Shown: positions 3,047 to 23,653 of the stretch, piece after piece | Position numbering within the stretch: position 1 is the stretch's first letter | Layout: each line of letters starts with the position of its first letter | Made by a program: the position numbers and the translations under genes | The notes under the pieces: model-generated | The model's database searches: none | What the model saw: only the letters and a program-made list of their open reading frames with translations | What the model was told of the DNA's origin: nothing | Virus record (IMG/VR): IMGVR_UViG_3300005432_000018 | Coordinates: 1 to 23,653 of that record | Reading direction: 5' to 3' (one strand) | From: a virus | Length of the DNA stretch: 23,653 nt

Positions 3047-4213
3047 ATGGCTGCAATTCAAGGACTACGGGGTACAGGTCAGTTTACAACGGACTTCCGC
3101 CCTAAGAATTACAGAGAATTATATTCTTTGTTAGAACCTAATGGTAATGCCCCGCTAAATGCATTATTATCAATGGCTTCAAGTGAAGCAACTGACGACC
3201 CGGAATTTATCAACTTTCGCGATGAGCTGCCCGCAAGGGAACTTACTGTGAATGGTGCGATAAGTTCTGCATCGACAACTGCGATCGTAGTAGCTAGTGG
3301 TAATGATAATCTTTTTGCGGTAGCAGGAACTATTATTGTTAACTCAGAAACTGGCGAAGTTATGCGATGTACTGCTGATAGTACAGCAACAGGTTTAACT
3401 GTTGAAAGAAATATCGGTGGGACAACCCATACAATCGCTGATGGCGCAAAGCTATTTATAGCAGGGTCAGCCTTCGAGGAAGGTGCGACCAGTCCAACAG
3501 GCGTATCATTTGATGCTTCAACCTCATCAAATTATACTCAAATTTTCAGAACTGCTTACACAGTAACTGAAACTTTGAAAGCCACTAATCTAAGGACTGG
3601 TGACAAAGAAGATGAGATGGCTACTAAGGCTCTCAAAATGCACATGTCTGATATTGAAAGGGCAATGTTTTTTGGGGTAAAGCACGAAAGTAACGGCTCA
3701 ACTGCACAACCTCGTAGATTTACAGGTGGTCTAACTAATCTCATTACAAACGTAATCGATAGATCAACAGCTTCTAGCTCTATGTCAGAAGATCAGTTCG
3801 ATCGTCAGCTAATCGAAAACGTATTCGCTTTCGGTTCTAAGCAGAAGATCATGTTTGTAGGTGCAAAAGTTGCAGGTCACTTGCAAAAGATAGGTAAAAA
3901 CAGATGGTCGCCAACTGTAATGGAAGGTACGTATGGAGTTAATTTAACTGCTTACGAAACTTTCGCAGGTACACTTATGACCCATCTGCACCCACAATTC
4001 AGACAGATACCGGGCATGGATGATGCGGCAGTTATTATTGACTTCCCATATCTGAAGTATCGTTATCTCGAAGGTCGTGATACATCTCTACTAAGAGATC
4101 GTCAAGCAACAGACGCTGATAGCACAAAGTCAGAATACTTGACCGAGTGTGGTCTTGAGATGTTGCAAGACAAGGTTCATACCTACATTAAAAACTGGAC
4201 TACGCTCACTTAA
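3047..4213 (+). CDS. Major capsid protein, SU10-like HK97 fold (388 aa)
   Basis: This is the shell-forming protein. The length, position after a scaffold gene, and the block SNYTQIFRTAYTVTETLKAT followed by helices with MHMSDIERAMFFG agree with the SU10-type major capsid family (Pfam SU10_MCP). An inserted beta-rich region lies at about residues 75-150. ATG 3047 is preferred over TTG 3041 because TAGGAGGA at 3033-3040 leaves a normal six-base spacing to the ATG, whereas it would abut the TTG directly; the ATG gives MAAIQGLRGTGQF. Its own candidate promoter and following hairpin make it a separately regulated high-expression unit. Residues 26-39 (YSLLEPNGNAPLNA) recur almost exactly, in another frame, just downstream of the gene. 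No propeptide or protease site is evident. Confidence 0.88.
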   Translation: MAAIQGLRGTGQFTTDFRPKNYRELYSLLEPNGNAPLNALLSMASSEATDDPEFINFRDELPARELTVNGAISSASTTAIVVASGNDNLFAVAGTIIVNSETGEVMRCTADSTATGLTVERNIGGTTHTIADGAKLFIAGSAFEEGATSPTGVSFDASTSSNYTQIFRTAYTVTETLKATNLRTGDKEDEMATKALKMHMSDIERAMFFGVKHESNGSTAQPRRFTGGLTNLITNVIDRSTASSSMSEDQFDRQLIENVFAFGSKQKIMFVGAKVAGHLQKIGKNRWSPTVMEGTYGVNLTAYETFAGTLMTHLHPQFRQIPGMDDAAVIIDFPYLKYRYLEGRDTSLLRDRQATDADSTKSEYLTECGLEMLQDKVHTYIKNWTTLT

Positions 4214-4235
4214 TTCCCTCTACGAGCAAGTCTAC

Positions 4236-4267
4236 GAGCGGGCGCATCAGCGCCCGTTCTTATTTCA
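4236..4267 (+). terminator. GC-rich terminator-like hairpin after major capsid gene
   Basis: CGGGCGC (4239-4245) pairs with GCGCCCG (4250-4256) around the tetraloop ATCA, and the stem extends outward by a G-T wobble and two pairs to 4236-4259. It is followed by TTCTTATTTC, an imperfect T-rich tail, so termination may be partial. It sits 22 bases after the capsid stop, in an otherwise AT-rich sequence. The 5' side of the stem overlaps a CTACGAGCG motif (4232-4240). Confidence 0.7.
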
Positions 4268-4268
4268 A

Positions 4269-4310
4269 TATACATTTTTAGAACCTAACGGGGACGCACC
4301 ACTTAATGCA
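4269..4310 (+). pseudogene. Duplicated capsid N-arm segment (14 codons)
   Basis: Read in frame, this stretch encodes YTFLEPNGDAPLNA, matching capsid residues 26-39 (YSLLEPNGNAPLNA, bases 3122-3163) at 11 of 14 residues, with S/T, L/F and N/D as the only changes. At DNA level 32 of 42 bases match, and within the 11-codon core six of seven mismatches are at third codon positions and silent. That pattern indicates that the copy was translated for some time after duplication. It lies between the post-capsid hairpin and the zinc-ribbon gene, and its last bases precede that gene's ribosome binding site. It could be the relic of a second capsid gene, or part of a frame-shifted capsid extension: the same frame is open from just after the capsid stop to 4343. 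Confidence 0.6.
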
Positions 4311-4320
4311 GGAGAATTTT

Positions 4321-4500
4321 ATGTCTTATCAAGGTACAGATAGTTTTTGCCCTAGATGTGGAACATACGGAGATGAAGCTGTGTTTGTTCATGGACATTA
4401 TCAATGTCCGATTTGCAAATGTGTCATTGATGATTGCTGTCAAGGAGAAAGGACGACTAAGGGTGATAAATGCCCGATAAATAAAGAACCATCAAAATAG
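4321..4500 (+). CDS. Small zinc-ribbon protein (59 aa)
   Basis: The protein carries CPRC (Cys10, Cys13) and CPIC (Cys29, Cys32) separated by fifteen residues, the spacing of a zinc ribbon, followed by KCVIDDCCQGE with three more Cys. It should bind one structural zinc; partner and role are unknown. Similar tiny CxxC...CPxC..VIDDCC proteins are found next to capsid genes in marine phages, where they may be head accessory proteins, which is inference. ATG 4321 is preferred to ATG 4306 because AGGAG (4310-4314) sits six bases ahead of it, while 4306 has none. The stop overlaps the ribosome binding site of the next gene. Confidence 0.75.
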   Translation: MSYQGTDSFCPRCGTYGDEAVFVHGHYQCPICKCVIDDCCQGERTTKGDKCPINKEPSK

Positions 4501-16411: not shown

Positions 16412-19400
16412 ATGAGCATTTTTAATGAATTTGATGATCTGTTCGAGGACGGATCAGCTAAACAAGAAAAAGACTACACCCACAAAACAGGATACGCACT
16501 TCTAAACGATCGTAGAGCAATCAACGACGTGCGGAATTACTATGCCAGTAAGGGTAAAACATTCGCTAACAACCAAGAAATGTGGGATCAGTTCTACAGC
16601 GATAAGCGTTGGGCTGATGTGAACACAGTTTCGATGATAAAGGATGTAGGTGAATATGCTTTCGCAGGTGAAGATAGAAAACTCCATGCAAGATTAAGTA
16701 AGTTATGGCAGAACGCTCCATCAAGAGGAACTGTCTGGGATAAGGTTGTTGATTATGGAACGGCGGGCATACTTGATCCAACAAATTTATTAGGTGGTTG
16801 GGGCGTAGCCGCAAAAGGAAAGAAAGCCTATGACGTTGCTCGCGCAGGTGGGGCAACACTAGCTGCGGCCAGAAAAAAAGCTTTGAGTGCAGGTACATGG
16901 CAAGGTGCAAAAACTGAAGCGGCGATCGGTGGTGCAATCGGAACAAGTTTTGATGTGGCACAACAAGGTATGGAGATCGCTCAAGGCGTATCGGATGAGT
17001 TTGATGTTACTCGTGCGCTTATATCTGGTGGACTTGATGCAGGGTTAAGTGCTTTAGGTGGTGCGGCAGTTGGAAGGTATGTCGCTAGTGGTGCAGTAAA
17101 TGACTTAACAAACTGGCGAGCTAACAGTACATTCGGGACGACATCTGCACAAAGAATTTCTGAACTCGATAGAGAAATTAACAGCATAAGTGCTGATTAT
17201 GATGTAGCTACTGATGGGTTTGCTAGAGCCGATTTAGAAGATCAAAGAGCGAATGTCGAAGCTGAAAGATCGGCACTTCTAGGAGAAATGGAAAAGGTCA
17301 ATGAGCTAGACCAAGAGCTAGACAGTATTGCAAAACAAATGCAAGCTGCACTTAAAGAAAATCCTCAAGCTAATACTGATGATCTTTTAAATAAATTTAA
17401 AGAATTAGCAAAAACTAGATCAAAATTATTAGAACAAGATGTAACTGCTGCTGACCTCAAAGGCTTGTCCGGATTTAAAACTCCTACTCCTTCCGCTCGT
17501 CCTACGAGCGTAGAAGCGGACGAAGGTGGCGTAACAGACACAAAAGCTCCGTCCGAGAAAAAAGCTACGAGCGGCACGAAGAAAGCAAAAGTAGAAGAAG
17601 GAAACGTAGAACCACCTGTTGATGAGCAAATCAATGCAAAAAGAAAAGAAGCAGATGATCTCGGTAAAATCGTAGAAGGTCAAGCCGACACAATAGTTAA
17701 GGCTGAAACTCCTAAAGCCAAAGCTTCTAAAGTAGAGCTTACTCCAGAAGAGACTGCAATACTGGATCAAATAGAAGGAGTTGACCCTTCTGAAGTGCAG
17801 GTAAAGTTTAAGGAAGCAGGTAAGGATAATAAATCTGGTAGAACTTTAGGTAAGGAAGTTGAAGCAGATATTGAGAAAGGTCTTATTACTGAGGATCAAG
17901 TCAAGAAACTTTTTTCAATAAAAGATTATGTAAATGCAAGTGGCTTCCCTAACAGAAAATGGAATAAAGCAAGAAAGCTTATCGTCGCTGCTAACAGAAA
18001 ATTAAAAGGCGATGCACCTACAACTAGTAAAGTCGAAACTAAAAGTGCAGTAAAACCCGTAGAGCCGTCAACAGTTAAAAAGGCTATAACGCCACAACAA
18101 AAGAAATACAAAGCATCACAAAGAAAAGCATACCTTAAAAAAAGAAAAGAACTTATTGGTGATGGAAGTCACAGAGGGTTAAGTAATGCTTGGTCTACTG
18201 CAAAGTCAAAGCAAGAAGTTGATGATGTTATCAATAAGATGGAAGATTACATCAATGGGAAAGAAACCCCTTCGATAGTTCAAGAAAATGCCGCCGACGC
18301 TCAAGCTGATGCAATCAATGATGTAGCTAAATTAGATAATACTTCTTTTGAAGCACAGGAAATAAAGCAAGCTGAAGATTTCTTTAATAAATATTGGGAT
18401 GAAAGCGCAGGGGGTGCTGTAAATAGAGGGTCTTACGTTACTACGAGATTAGCTGATGGTGTAAAAAAAGGAAACATAAGTGGTCGTGTTGCAACGATTG
18501 TACGCAAAATGGTCAAAGAGGCTGAAGAGCAAGTAGAGTTAGGTAAGAAGCTTGAAAGCAAAATGACTTACGAAGGGTTAAGAGCCGAAGCTCTTGCTAG
18601 AGGACTTGGTGATGCACAGCCAGATATAATAGGAAAAGCTAAGACTTACAAATTAGGAAAAGGTGCTACTGTCACAACAGAAGCACGTGATCGTACAGGA
18701 AATAGACTAGCAAGAAATACATTAAAAGCTGCAGCTGAACTCGAAGATGGAGCAAAAACAGCAGGTCGTACGACAGTAGAATATACTCGCTCTGATGGAA
18801 CAAAAGTACAGTTCACAAAATTACAGAGTATTGTTCGCGGCGGTTTTAATGTTAAGATGCTTGACCCAGAAGATGTAAGAACAGTTCTGGGCATTAACGA
18901 TATTCCTACTGAAGCCAAGTTTAACATTGATGCGGCTAAAGCCAGAGCAGCTATGGACAAGGATGGTGGAGCAGTAGAGGGTTGGGCAGATGGGCAAAAG
19001 CTCGCTTATCCTTTTACAGCAACAGGTGTAGAACGTATTAGAGGAATACCAAGAGAGCCCGGTTCTCGCAAATTGGGTAAGGCTGAAAAGGGACAAACTT
19101 ATTATTACGTTCCTAAGTTAAGGGGTAATTATGCAGACCCTTACATTATTATGCAATCTCTTGGCTTGGATAAAAACTTTAATGTAAAGCAAAGAGGTCT
19201 TTATAATGGCAAGCTAGATAGTGCAACTGATGTCATTAATGCTAAAAAACAAGTTGAAAAAGACTACAAAGGCGATCCAGATAAAATTAGTGCCGCTAAG
19301 AACGAAATTGATTTAAAGGCAGGAGTTAAAAAAGAACCAGAGCCTACTTCAGTAGAAGAAGTATATCCAACTTCAAACATTCCTATGTCTAAAGAAGGCA

Positions 19401-22400
19401 AGGTACTCGTAGCAATACCAAGAGAAATAGGTTCTGATGCTGTACGTGTAGCATCTGTTAAGCCGGGTAGACTTGATGGTGTTGCACAAGCAGATAGACC
19501 GGGAATGTCTGCATCAGACTTACTTGGAAAATTTAAAAATAATCCCAGTAGGTTTTATCTTGGGTATGTATCTCGCTCGCTCGTAGAAGATGAAGCAACC
19601 CTTCGAGCGCTGAAGGCTGATGGGAACAGGGAAAAGCTATTTGAAGTCTTTGAGCCTATTGATGAAGTAAATGCACCAGAAGGCACAGTTAAACCAGAAG
19701 TACAGGAAACAAATTCTACTAATGTTGCCCCTTATGAAATAGGGACGCATGGAATGTTTGACACTACAAAGCTTACAACAGATCAAGAAAACGCTTTCGT
19801 GTTTGCATTTAAAACTATGAGCAATCCTAAGAAAACAAAAGCTGAAATAGAAAAGATGTTTTTTGGTGATGGAGAAAACAAACCAACAATAGGTAAATGT
19901 CTTGTAGAAGATTTATGGAGATGGACAGAAATGTTGAAGAAAAGTAATTGGAGAGCTTCAACAAATGGTGTCAATGTACCTCTTGGTCAGAGAGTAACCT
20001 TATTAAGAGAATTGCACGGAATACTTGCAGACGTTGCTCCCGGCGGTATTAAAAAATCAAACGTAGATATTGAAGAAAGTGTACGTGGTCTTAGAGATGT
20101 TTTTTCCAGATCGAGTGCAGAAGAACTAGCAGATATGGAGAGAGTTCTTCGCCTCACAACTAAAAACGCAGGGGTAGCTCCAAGAATTACTGAATTTACA
20201 GATGAACAACTTGCTATGGATGATATAACCAGAGTAGTTAAGGGTGCAGCAGCTAGTGGTAAACATCGTGCATTTGAACATTCAATACTGGTTGATGGTA
20301 AAGCACAATTAAAAGATAGATATAATCACCTTGCCTTTTCTCCGGATGGTACTTCACCAACTGCTCAATTGCAGCCGTCATTTGCCTTTGCACACGAACT
20401 AGGTCATTGGGTGTTTCATAATTTATTAGACCCATCTGACATACAAAAATATTTTAAAGCAGTAGGTCGCCATGTTGATGAAACAGGAAGTTTAACGTCT
20501 GAAGGAAGTGATTTTCTTTTTTCAAAAGCTCCGACAATTAGGCAAGGTGAAAAAAACATAGCAGGTGCAAATAATTGGAACGCAAGTCCGGGCGAGCATT
20601 TTGCTAACCAGTTTGCTCTGTATCTTCATCATCACCATGACCTTATGATTGTACCAGATCGAACACTGTGGGAAAAAGTCACAAGGATTGTTCGATCTCT
20701 TTGGGAAAAAATGACAAACAAAAACATTATTGACAAAGAGTTAGAGCCAATCTTTCAGAAAATAATTACAAACAAGGATGAGTTTGAAATTCAAAAGTTT
20801 CACCTACCTGCACGTGAAGTAACCACAGCAGGTGGAAGAACATATCAGTCAAGATATGTTCAATGGCTTGAAAGTTATCGAGGTTTAAAGTTGGCAGTAG
20901 AGGACGACAACCCTGCGGGGATTATCGCTTACGCAGATGAGTTAGCTAATGCAATCAACGGGTCTACGGCAACTGATAGACAAGCAATGATGGCGGCTAG
21001 AGCTAAACAAAGAGCGGCAATCAATGAAGGTCGTGATCCAGAAACAGAAGCTTTCAGAGGTTATACTGGTAGATTAAGGGTCTTTAATGACAACAAAAAC
21101 TTAACGGATAAATTACGTTCGGACTACAGAAAGTTAAAAGAAATGGTAGCACAGGGGACTGTAACAGAGTTTTTACCCGGTGAAGATATGGCAACTACCT
21201 CACACAATCCAGAAGTGATCGAAGAGTTGAAAGCATTTCTACGATCAGAAGAATTTGACAGCAACATACAAGGTGCAATGGATTTGTTTAATGAGCAGTT
21301 CCTTTATTTAGAAGGTGCTGACATTCCAGAATATATACCAAGTCAGCAATTAATTAATCTAAGAAAAGAAAAAAGTATTGGTTCACAAAGAAGAACAATA
21401 AGGAAAAAGAAATATCATCAAAGCATTAAAGCCGCTAGAACTAAAAGGCTTAAAGAAACTATAGCGAAGATGAGGGCTATAGGTGGATACCATAGTAGAA
21501 TTAGCGACAACCAACGGAAAGGAAATTACTCACCTCAAGAAGTTGATCTTGTAACTGCATTGTCAGAGTATCCTAAATATCTCGATGAAGCAGGTGTACC
21601 TAATAAGTTTGGGAAACAATTAGCGTCGAGAGTAAAACACCTAATCGCTACCAAGATTGAACCTATAGACAAATCTGTAGGCGATCCTCTTAGCAATCGC
21701 CAGTATACCGAACTCGATCAGAACCAACTGATCTTTAGGTATGCTAATGCCCTTAATCGGGGAGATCAAGGTATAGCAGATCAAGTCATGTATGAGTTAC
21801 AACAACGAAGATTTTATAAGAACAACAGTCAAATCATACCAACAACCTCTGACAGAGTTAACAATGCTATCGATGATGAGCTTATGGTAGTATACGAAAA
21901 TAGTGAAGAAATAGGTATACCTTCGTCTGCATCATTTAAAGTAAGAAACTTATTGGGTAAGATTACAAATAGAGGAGACGAGTTAACTTTATCCTCAAGG
22001 ACAGTTGCTCACAGACTTATGTTGTTAGGTGCAGAGTTTAATCCACAAACAACAAGCAAATCATTCAATGACTTTAGAACTGATGTTAGAAGAATTGGAG
22101 TTAATTTAACAAAGAAGGAGGATATTTCACAAAGCGTTGAAATGATCGCTCGTAGAGTTTTAACTTCTTCTGCATTTGGTGAAGAGAAGATGGCATCTAT
22201 CAGACGAGCAGCAGCCGAGTTTGGTTTTGAGCCAGAAGATACTATTGCTAAACTTGCTGTTGATGATTTAGATGCTTCTTCCGATAAGGCAACTCTTAAA
22301 CAACTCACAAAAGATATTGGTGAAAGCTTTGACAGTACGCTCGAAGAAGCATTAACGTCTATTCGATCAGAAATGAGAGAAGCAATTTCCTATGTAATGA

Positions 22401-23653
22401 ATGGGCTTATATCTAAGAAGGGTGCTAGAAAAAGATTTCATAATGCTACTGTCTATGGAGATATGTTAGGAACGAGGTCTGGTTTTGACCCCAGTTCTCC
22501 AAGCTTACATTTTATGGACGACATTCCTTCGGAATATGCGAGAGACTATGCGAGTGATTTGCTTCGTACACTCAAGCCTTCTACAGTAAGAGGAATAAAA
22601 TCCTTTACACAAACAGACGATATGACCCCTTATTTTGTAGAAAGTTTAGAGGGCGATAATTTATTTGGGAATGGTATTAATGTTACAACCAGTCCTAATA
22701 ATAATATAAAGAATAGCAAAGATACTATATTAGCAACTATCCCAGACAACTTTAAAGAATATGGTGAAGAGCTACTAGACGATTTAATTAATTTACGGGA
22801 TGGCATTAAATCAATGAGAGCGTTTTATAGGGCAGAACCAACAGACATTGCTCTACAATATGATAAAGAAAAAGCTATCCTTGATGACTTGAAAAGGATA
22901 GGTGCTACAAATCTACCAACTTCGAGAGTTGTTTTTATTAAGGACAACAATCCTATAGATATGAATAAACGTATGGCAGGTAAAGACCCAAGCATCGTAG
23001 CCGTTATGGATGCTATCGCTTCAAATACTACAAGAGCTATTGACAAAGACCTTATAGGTACATTCACACCAGAAGAAGCATACTCTATTTTTGTAGAGAG
23101 AGCAGGTAGTGGAATGAAGCTGAAGGAAGCTTTGAAAAAGGCAGGTTACACTTCACTTTCTGTAGGTAATAAAAAATCTATGATCGATCCTTTAAACATA
23201 AAGGATATAAGAAGTAGAGATTTTGTTGATGAGAAGTTCAACATGGGTGTTGTCCCGGCACCATCTGATCCAGTCCCATACTTGTTAAAAGCTATGTCTA
23301 CAGACAATGATGTAGGAACAGATGCGTTTATCCAAGTCGCAAGTGCTGCAGAGCAAAGTGGTATACCTTCAAAAGTTGTGAATGTTTTAGATAAAGTGAG
23401 AAGAAAGAAAAATATCACAAGCGCAGAAGGTGCTGAAATTAGAAAGGCATCTAAGTGGTCGCTCACAAAAACAAATGCACAGGTGATGAGGCAGAATGGG
23501 ATGCACCATTCTGCTAACTTTTACGAACCTAGCAATGGAGATGCGGGTCACTTCGAGCGAGTGAACGCTCGGATGGGTAACTTCATATTGCCGTTGACAC
23601 GTATGCTAAAAACTCTACCCGATAGCCCAACTGCATTAGGCAGATGGTTAAAT
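16412..23653 (+). CDS. Giant polyvalent ejection protein with HELGH metallopeptidase and ART-like region (partial, at least 2414 aa)
   Basis: The frame stays open from ATG 16412 to the window edge; the C-terminus is missing. Domains in order: a conserved N-terminus; an Ala/Gly-rich, membrane-interacting region at about 115-230 (ILDPTNLLGGWGVAAKGKKA; IGGAIGTSFDVAQQGMEIAQ); a coiled coil at about 250-343; a Lys/Pro/Ala linker to about 560; long mixed regions; a zincin segment with FAHELGHWVFHN (His1328, Glu1329, His1332) and SPGEHFANQFALYL, whose Glu1395 is the likely third zinc ligand; basic helical regions; and an ADP-ribosyltransferase-like segment at about 2070-2270 (LFGNGINVTTSP at 2084, RVVFIKDNNPIDM, LKKAGYTSLS at about 2241-2250, MIDPLNIKDI at 2257). 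This matches large polyvalent phage proteins packaged in the head and delivered at infection, analogous in position to T7 gp16. No lysozyme or transglycosylase motif was recognised. The metallopeptidase call is firm as a motif; the ART call is weaker. Confidence 0.75.
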   Translation, partial: MSIFNEFDDLFEDGSAKQEKDYTHKTGYALLNDRRAINDVRNYYASKGKTFANNQEMWDQFYSDKRWADVNTVSMIKDVGEYAFAGEDRKLHARLSKLWQNAPSRGTVWDKVVDYGTAGILDPTNLLGGWGVAAKGKKAYDVARAGGATLAAARKKALSAGTWQGAKTEAAIGGAIGTSFDVAQQGMEIAQGVSDEFDVTRALISGGLDAGLSALGGAAVGRYVASGAVNDLTNWRANSTFGTTSAQRISELDREINSISADYDVATDGFARADLEDQRANVEAERSALLGEMEKVNELDQELDSIAKQMQAALKENPQANTDDLLNKFKELAKTRSKLLEQDVTAADLKGLSGFKTPTPSARPTSVEADEGGVTDTKAPSEKKATSGTKKAKVEEGNVEPPVDEQINAKRKEADDLGKIVEGQADTIVKAETPKAKASKVELTPEETAILDQIEGVDPSEVQVKFKEAGKDNKSGRTLGKEVEADIEKGLITEDQVKKLFSIKDYVNASGFPNRKWNKARKLIVAANRKLKGDAPTTSKVETKSAVKPVEPSTVKKAITPQQKKYKASQRKAYLKKRKELIGDGSHRGLSNAWSTAKSKQEVDDVINKMEDYINGKETPSIVQENAADAQADAINDVAKLDNTSFEAQEIKQAEDFFNKYWDESAGGAVNRGSYVTTRLADGVKKGNISGRVATIVRKMVKEAEEQVELGKKLESKMTYEGLRAEALARGLGDAQPDIIGKAKTYKLGKGATVTTEARDRTGNRLARNTLKAAAELEDGAKTAGRTTVEYTRSDGTKVQFTKLQSIVRGGFNVKMLDPEDVRTVLGINDIPTEAKFNIDAAKARAAMDKDGGAVEGWADGQKLAYPFTATGVERIRGIPREPGSRKLGKAEKGQTYYYVPKLRGNYADPYIIMQSLGLDKNFNVKQRGLYNGKLDSATDVINAKKQVEKDYKGDPDKISAAKNEIDLKAGVKKEPEPTSVEEVYPTSNIPMSKEGKVLVAIPREIGSDAVRVASVKPGRLDGVAQADRPGMSASDLLGKFKNNPSRFYLGYVSRSLVEDEATLRALKADGNREKLFEVFEPIDEVNAPEGTVKPEVQETNSTNVAPYEIGTHGMFDTTKLTTDQENAFVFAFKTMSNPKKTKAEIEKMFFGDGENKPTIGKCLVEDLWRWTEMLKKSNWRASTNGVNVPLGQRVTLLRELHGILADVAPGGIKKSNVDIEESVRGLRDVFSRSSAEELADMERVLRLTTKNAGVAPRITEFTDEQLAMDDITRVVKGAAASGKHRAFEHSILVDGKAQLKDRYNHLAFSPDGTSPTAQLQPSFAFAHELGHWVFHNLLDPSDIQKYFKAVGRHVDETGSLTSEGSDFLFSKAPTIRQGEKNIAGANNWNASPGEHFANQFALYLHHHHDLMIVPDRTLWEKVTRIVRSLWEKMTNKNIIDKELEPIFQKIITNKDEFEIQKFHLPAREVTTAGGRTYQSRYVQWLESYRGLKLAVEDDNPAGIIAYADELANAINGSTATDRQAMMAARAKQRAAINEGRDPETEAFRGYTGRLRVFNDNKNLTDKLRSDYRKLKEMVAQGTVTEFLPGEDMATTSHNPEVIEELKAFLRSEEFDSNIQGAMDLFNEQFLYLEGADIPEYIPSQQLINLRKEKSIGSQRRTIRKKKYHQSIKAARTKRLKETIAKMRAIGGYHSRISDNQRKGNYSPQEVDLVTALSEYPKYLDEAGVPNKFGKQLASRVKHLIATKIEPIDKSVGDPLSNRQYTELDQNQLIFRYANALNRGDQGIADQVMYELQQRRFYKNNSQIIPTTSDRVNNAIDDELMVVYENSEEIGIPSSASFKVRNLLGKITNRGDELTLSSRTVAHRLMLLGAEFNPQTTSKSFNDFRTDVRRIGVNLTKKEDISQSVEMIARRVLTSSAFGEEKMASIRRAAAEFGFEPEDTIAKLAVDDLDASSDKATLKQLTKDIGESFDSTLEEALTSIRSEMREAISYVMNGLISKKGARKRFHNATVYGDMLGTRSGFDPSSPSLHFMDDIPSEYARDYASDLLRTLKPSTVRGIKSFTQTDDMTPYFVESLEGDNLFGNGINVTTSPNNNIKNSKDTILATIPDNFKEYGEELLDDLINLRDGIKSMRAFYRAEPTDIALQYDKEKAILDDLKRIGATNLPTSRVVFIKDNNPIDMNKRMAGKDPSIVAVMDAIASNTTRAIDKDLIGTFTPEEAYSIFVERAGSGMKLKEALKKAGYTSLSVGNKKSMIDPLNIKDIRSRDFVDEKFNMGVVPAPSDPVPYLLKAMSTDNDVGTDAFIQVASAAEQSGIPSKVVNVLDKVRRKKNITSAEGAEIRKASKWSLTKTNAQVMRQNGMHHSANFYEPSNGDAGHFERVNARMGNFILPLTRMLKTLPDSPTALGRWLN

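Follow-up and report, generated by a model that had tools for sequence, protein, structure and literature searches.

A probable recombination scrap of a capsid gene beside an inserted zinc-ribbon gene in a marine phage of the CRP-810 type

The window analyzed here, a stretch of 23,653 nucleotides of viral DNA, raises the question of why a short piece of capsid coding sequence should recur just downstream of the capsid gene itself, and whether the copy has any function there. The initial annotation saw in it either the relic of a tandem capsid duplication or the end of a frame-shifted capsid extension. Our analysis points to a simpler origin: with a probability of roughly 0.8, this 42-base stretch is a scrap of a capsid gene (codons 25/26–39) that has no function and was left by recombination at the left junction of an insertion. 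The features of interest are as follows:

3047 to 4213, plus strand: major capsid protein gene, SU10_MCP family (Pfam PF17236, E 3.2e-39; phrog_1328, major head protein)
3122 to 3163, plus strand: capsid codons 26–39, the homologue of the scrap (32/42 nucleotides identical; blastn E 5.4e-4)
4236 to 4259, plus strand: family-wide intrinsic terminator hairpin 3' of the capsid gene (78/78 testable relatives; RNA fold)
4268 to 4450, plus strand: clade-specific insertion of about 183 bp, comprising the capsid scrap and the zinc-ribbon gene (recognized from relatives with the box directly after the terminator; ends placed by eye and uncertain by a few bases)
4269 to 4310, plus strand: capsid-gene scrap, encoding YTFLEPNGDAPLNA (homologous to the capsid gene; found only in the window, L003–L007 and L062)
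4321 to 4500, plus strand: zinc-ribbon gene of 59 residues, its Shine-Dalgarno directly after the scrap (core VHGH.QC..C...DDCCQGER, common to phages outside the family)
4450 to 4483, plus strand: conserved box AGGACGAC-N18-GATAAATA, which the zinc-ribbon gene overlaps with its 3' end (the pattern follows the capsid gene in 78 of 80 relatives)

The window is a marine phage of the CRP-810 type with an SU10-like capsid protein. The gene at 3047–4213, which ends in a TAA stop codon at 4211–4213, is a full-length member of this group, as capsid residues 12–383 align to positions 4–290 of the 292 in the PF17236 profile. Its closest named phage is Roseobacter phage CRP-810, with 70% amino acid identity between the capsid proteins. 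CRP-810 is the type of a proposed Roseobacter phage family (PMC11288001) and shares with the window the gene order around the capsid gene, whereas neither the scrap nor the zinc-ribbon gene is annotated 3' of the CRP-810 capsid gene. The comparison set consisted of 80 related IMG/VR loci. Elsewhere in the window, a very long ORF of more than 2400 codons occupies 16412–23653 and continues past the window end.

The homology between scrap and capsid gene is far above chance. Bases 4269–4310 encode YTFLEPNGDAPLNA, as compared with YSLLEPNGNAPLNA at capsid residues 26–39, and the two agree at 11 of 14 amino acids, just as the initial annotation had reported, and at 32 of 42 nucleotides. When the gap was searched by blastn against the record from which the window comes, the match at 3121–3163 was recovered (E 5.4e-4), and 300 dinucleotide shuffles of 4214–4320 yielded a best score of 72 against the capsid gene, versus 105 observed (extrapolated p ~8e-7). 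By both measures, the sequence has the homology expected of a capsid-gene relic. The 10 nucleotide differences from the window's own capsid gene are distributed 2, 0 and 8 over codon positions 1, 2 and 3. Their description as nearly all silent requires some tempering: eight of the ten do fall at third positions, but of the eight codons affected, three now specify another amino acid (S27T, L28F and N34D). Codons 26–39 are also the most conserved stretch of the capsid gene and may be merely the piece that is still recognizable. When the 42 nucleotides were placed on the capsid tree, no placement was rejected (AU p 0.17–0.67), with a placement in the window's own clade weakly supported.

Among the loci compared, the scrap is confined to the window and a further six loci very close to it (L003–L007 and L062), which together form four haplotypes: window/L003, L004/L005, L006/L007 and L062. 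L003 is identical to the window across the region compared. In every member of this clade, the scrap, a Shine-Dalgarno and the 59-residue zinc-ribbon gene lie in this order between the hairpin and the box, with the scrap at the left edge. In relatives without these elements, the terminator and box are adjacent, which argues that scrap and zinc-ribbon gene form a single insertion. In the comparison of this gap among related phages proposed at the outset, the peptide is absent outside one tight clade and no second full capsid gene is present. A tblastn search of all loci with capsid residues 1–70 found no second or longer capsid-like sequence in the 80 relatives, the scrap being the sole convincing match outside the capsid gene. 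Similarly, a DNA search of IMG/VR with the scrap found no source for it outside the clade, and DNA searches with the pre-hairpin stretch and the scrap-gene junction matched only scrap-clade contigs. A search of long relatives located the scrap in clade members alone, always 3' of the capsid gene. The same slot holds a different zinc-ribbon gene in L011, L023 and L024, which belong to another clade, suggesting that the slot takes cargo.

Both elements flanking the insertion are family traits. The hairpin at 4236–4259 has 10 pairs, and a G+C-rich hairpin follows the capsid stop in all 78 relatives with enough sequence, regardless of whether a scrap is present. In L062, the terminator loop (4246–4249) is inverted from ATCA to TGAT and the stem is unchanged. 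The box follows the family pattern GGGACGAC-N18-(C/G)ATAAATA, with its spacing fixed at 18 bases, 3' of the capsid terminator; in 78 loci, GGACGA(C/T)-N18-(C/G)ATAA precedes a MARKRAR-type gene, and one of the two relatives lacking the box is cut off by its contig end. No box was found in CRP-810 at one mismatch. The box resembles a promoter that would serve the genes 3' of the capsid gene and might be read by an alternative sigma factor. It is single-copy in five of the six long genomes searched, which would be odd for a general late promoter.

The inserted gene itself has the substitution pattern expected of a selected gene, insofar as this can be read from comparing the window with L062: 13 changes at 34 silent sites versus 6 at 143 replacement sites. 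The window's member has no Pfam match above the cut-off and no PHROG match. A small zinc-ribbon family with the core VHGH.QC..C...VDDCCQGER does occur in other phages (L089–L097), in several cases 3' of a small basic-protein gene. The conserved core of these proteins ends at CCQGER(TT), the L090 gene ending in GERTTDQ. In the window, the codons for GERTT are GGAGAAAGGACGACT, whose final portion is the box itself, so that the end of the zinc-ribbon core runs into the box AGGACGACT. This arrangement fits a joining of the two at a brief stretch of similarity.

From these features, a likely origin of the scrap can be proposed. An illegitimate recombination event in the ancestor of the clade would have put the zinc-ribbon gene between the capsid terminator and the promoter-like box, and a piece of capsid gene, contributed either by that phage itself or by a relative, would have been joined at the upstream end of the insertion. 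On the right, the join presumably used the brief resemblance of the box to the end of the zinc-ribbon gene; the left-hand join would have caught the capsid piece. Today, the scrap would be only the untranslated leader of the zinc-ribbon gene, with the Shine-Dalgarno immediately after it. As for the donor, a related but diverged phage is the simplest source, and an extinct second capsid gene in the window phage itself is a possible one. The arrangement resembles the illegitimate-recombination junctions and fragments of other tailed phages, in that a short partial copy lies beside an inserted small gene in a few close genomes. It differs from them in that the scrap is very short and its source, a conserved gene for a structural protein, lies some 1.1 kb upstream.

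Whether the scrap has been kept as protein can be judged from its variation. Among haplotypes, it varies at five sites, two of which are silent (GAA/GAG and CCT/CCA) and three non-synonymous (L28F, P31L and A35T). Three haplotypes have F28, whereas L062 has P31L and A35T. Across 49 distinct capsid proteins, neither L28 nor P31 ever varies, and D34 does not occur. Since the L062 scrap retains L28 like the capsids, F28 is likely derived. In the part of the extension frame that precedes the zinc-ribbon ATG, the window and L062 differ by 2.5 changes at 23.7 silent sites and 8.5 changes at 84.3 replacement sites, which is no sign of protein constraint. We conclude with moderate confidence, from four haplotypes and few changes, that the scrap has been released from the capsid's protein constraint. 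The silent-rich divergence from the capsid gene needs a different explanation. Had the copy been neutral for half of the divergence, ~11 changes would be expected at codon positions 1 and 2 combined, as opposed to the 2 observed (P 0.0002). The sequence therefore spent most of that divergence within a working capsid gene and became a scrap late. Consequently, the silent differences record the coding history of the source gene and not selection upon the scrap; the earlier argument that they mark a copy selected as protein does not hold, as they reveal only its capsid-gene source.

The L062 capsid gene has a short divergent patch of its own (3106–3288), probably a recombination tract of ~180 bp, which indicates that short-tract exchange happens in the scrap group. 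An apparent hot spot of 9 differences in L062 capsid codons 26–39 was considered as being tied to the scrap and rejected, since 60-base bins showed it to belong to this wider patch.

The frame-shift proposal was that a small fraction of capsid subunits would shift by +1 past the stop and gain 43 residues, including NSLYEQVYERAHQRPFLFQYTFLEPNGDAPLNAGEFYVLSRYR and ending in the N-arm mimic, which would then join or compete in capsid assembly. The frame does read open from 4212 to 4343, as had been claimed, and it is open in all four haplotypes, with a stable hairpin downstream of the capsid stop. However, an open frame of 43 codons arises by chance not infrequently and, once present, would be inherited within the clade, and the extension is missing from all relatives outside that clade. 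The replacement changes within it include HQ to LM, caused by the L062 loop inversion, as well as P31L, A35T and L28F. The hairpin had been regarded as either terminator or stimulator, and it is the terminator of the family, which all other testable relatives possess without the extension. Past the capsid stop, the mimic frame contains no start codon (the listed ORF of this frame begins further 5', at GTG 4149 within the capsid gene), and inspection of CTC ACT TAA by eye revealed no obvious sequence for a +1 slip. The capsid frameshift of T7 gene 10A/10B uses a −1 shift. The window shares with it a capsid gene having an open shifted frame beyond the stop, but it would need a +1 shift and lacks a recognizable slip site, an extension-specific stimulator and family conservation, with replacement changes dominating between the window and L062 and a conserved terminator lying in between. 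With a single clade, a frame unconserved within that clade and a hairpin that is the family terminator, we consider both the frame-shift and its supposed role in assembly to be extremely improbable. Hardly more credible is the idea that the capsid and zinc-ribbon mRNAs share a regulatory site at the RNA or DNA level, such as a translational operator. The location of the scrap in the zinc-ribbon leader would suit such a site, but the match keeps the codon register and its differences are concentrated at third positions, which is not the signature of a conserved nucleotide site; capsid codons 26–39 vary freely at silent sites among relatives, and Rfam returned no credible match near the scrap.

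A tandem duplication of the window's own capsid gene deserves more consideration. According to this explanation, the second copy was functional for a time and then almost wholly deleted, the zinc-ribbon gene arriving later. The scrap lies on the same strand and in the same order directly after the capsid gene, a silent-rich divergence would suit a second gene kept functional for long, and one tree weakly places the scrap beside its own clade. Nevertheless, not one of the 80 relatives retains a second or longer capsid-like piece, and the scrap begins abruptly after the family terminator and ends just as abruptly at the inserted gene's leader. Thus, the capsid-relic component of the initial annotation is supported, whereas its whole-gene tandem duplication, lacking any longer copy and confronted with a scrap that lies within the insertion, is unlikely.

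The scrap is real and most probably an ordinary recombination leftover. The case illustrates how a silent-rich copy can be wrongly taken for a selected peptide, and it identifies the region just 3' of the capsid gene as a place where phages of the CRP-810 type accommodate small inserted genes.
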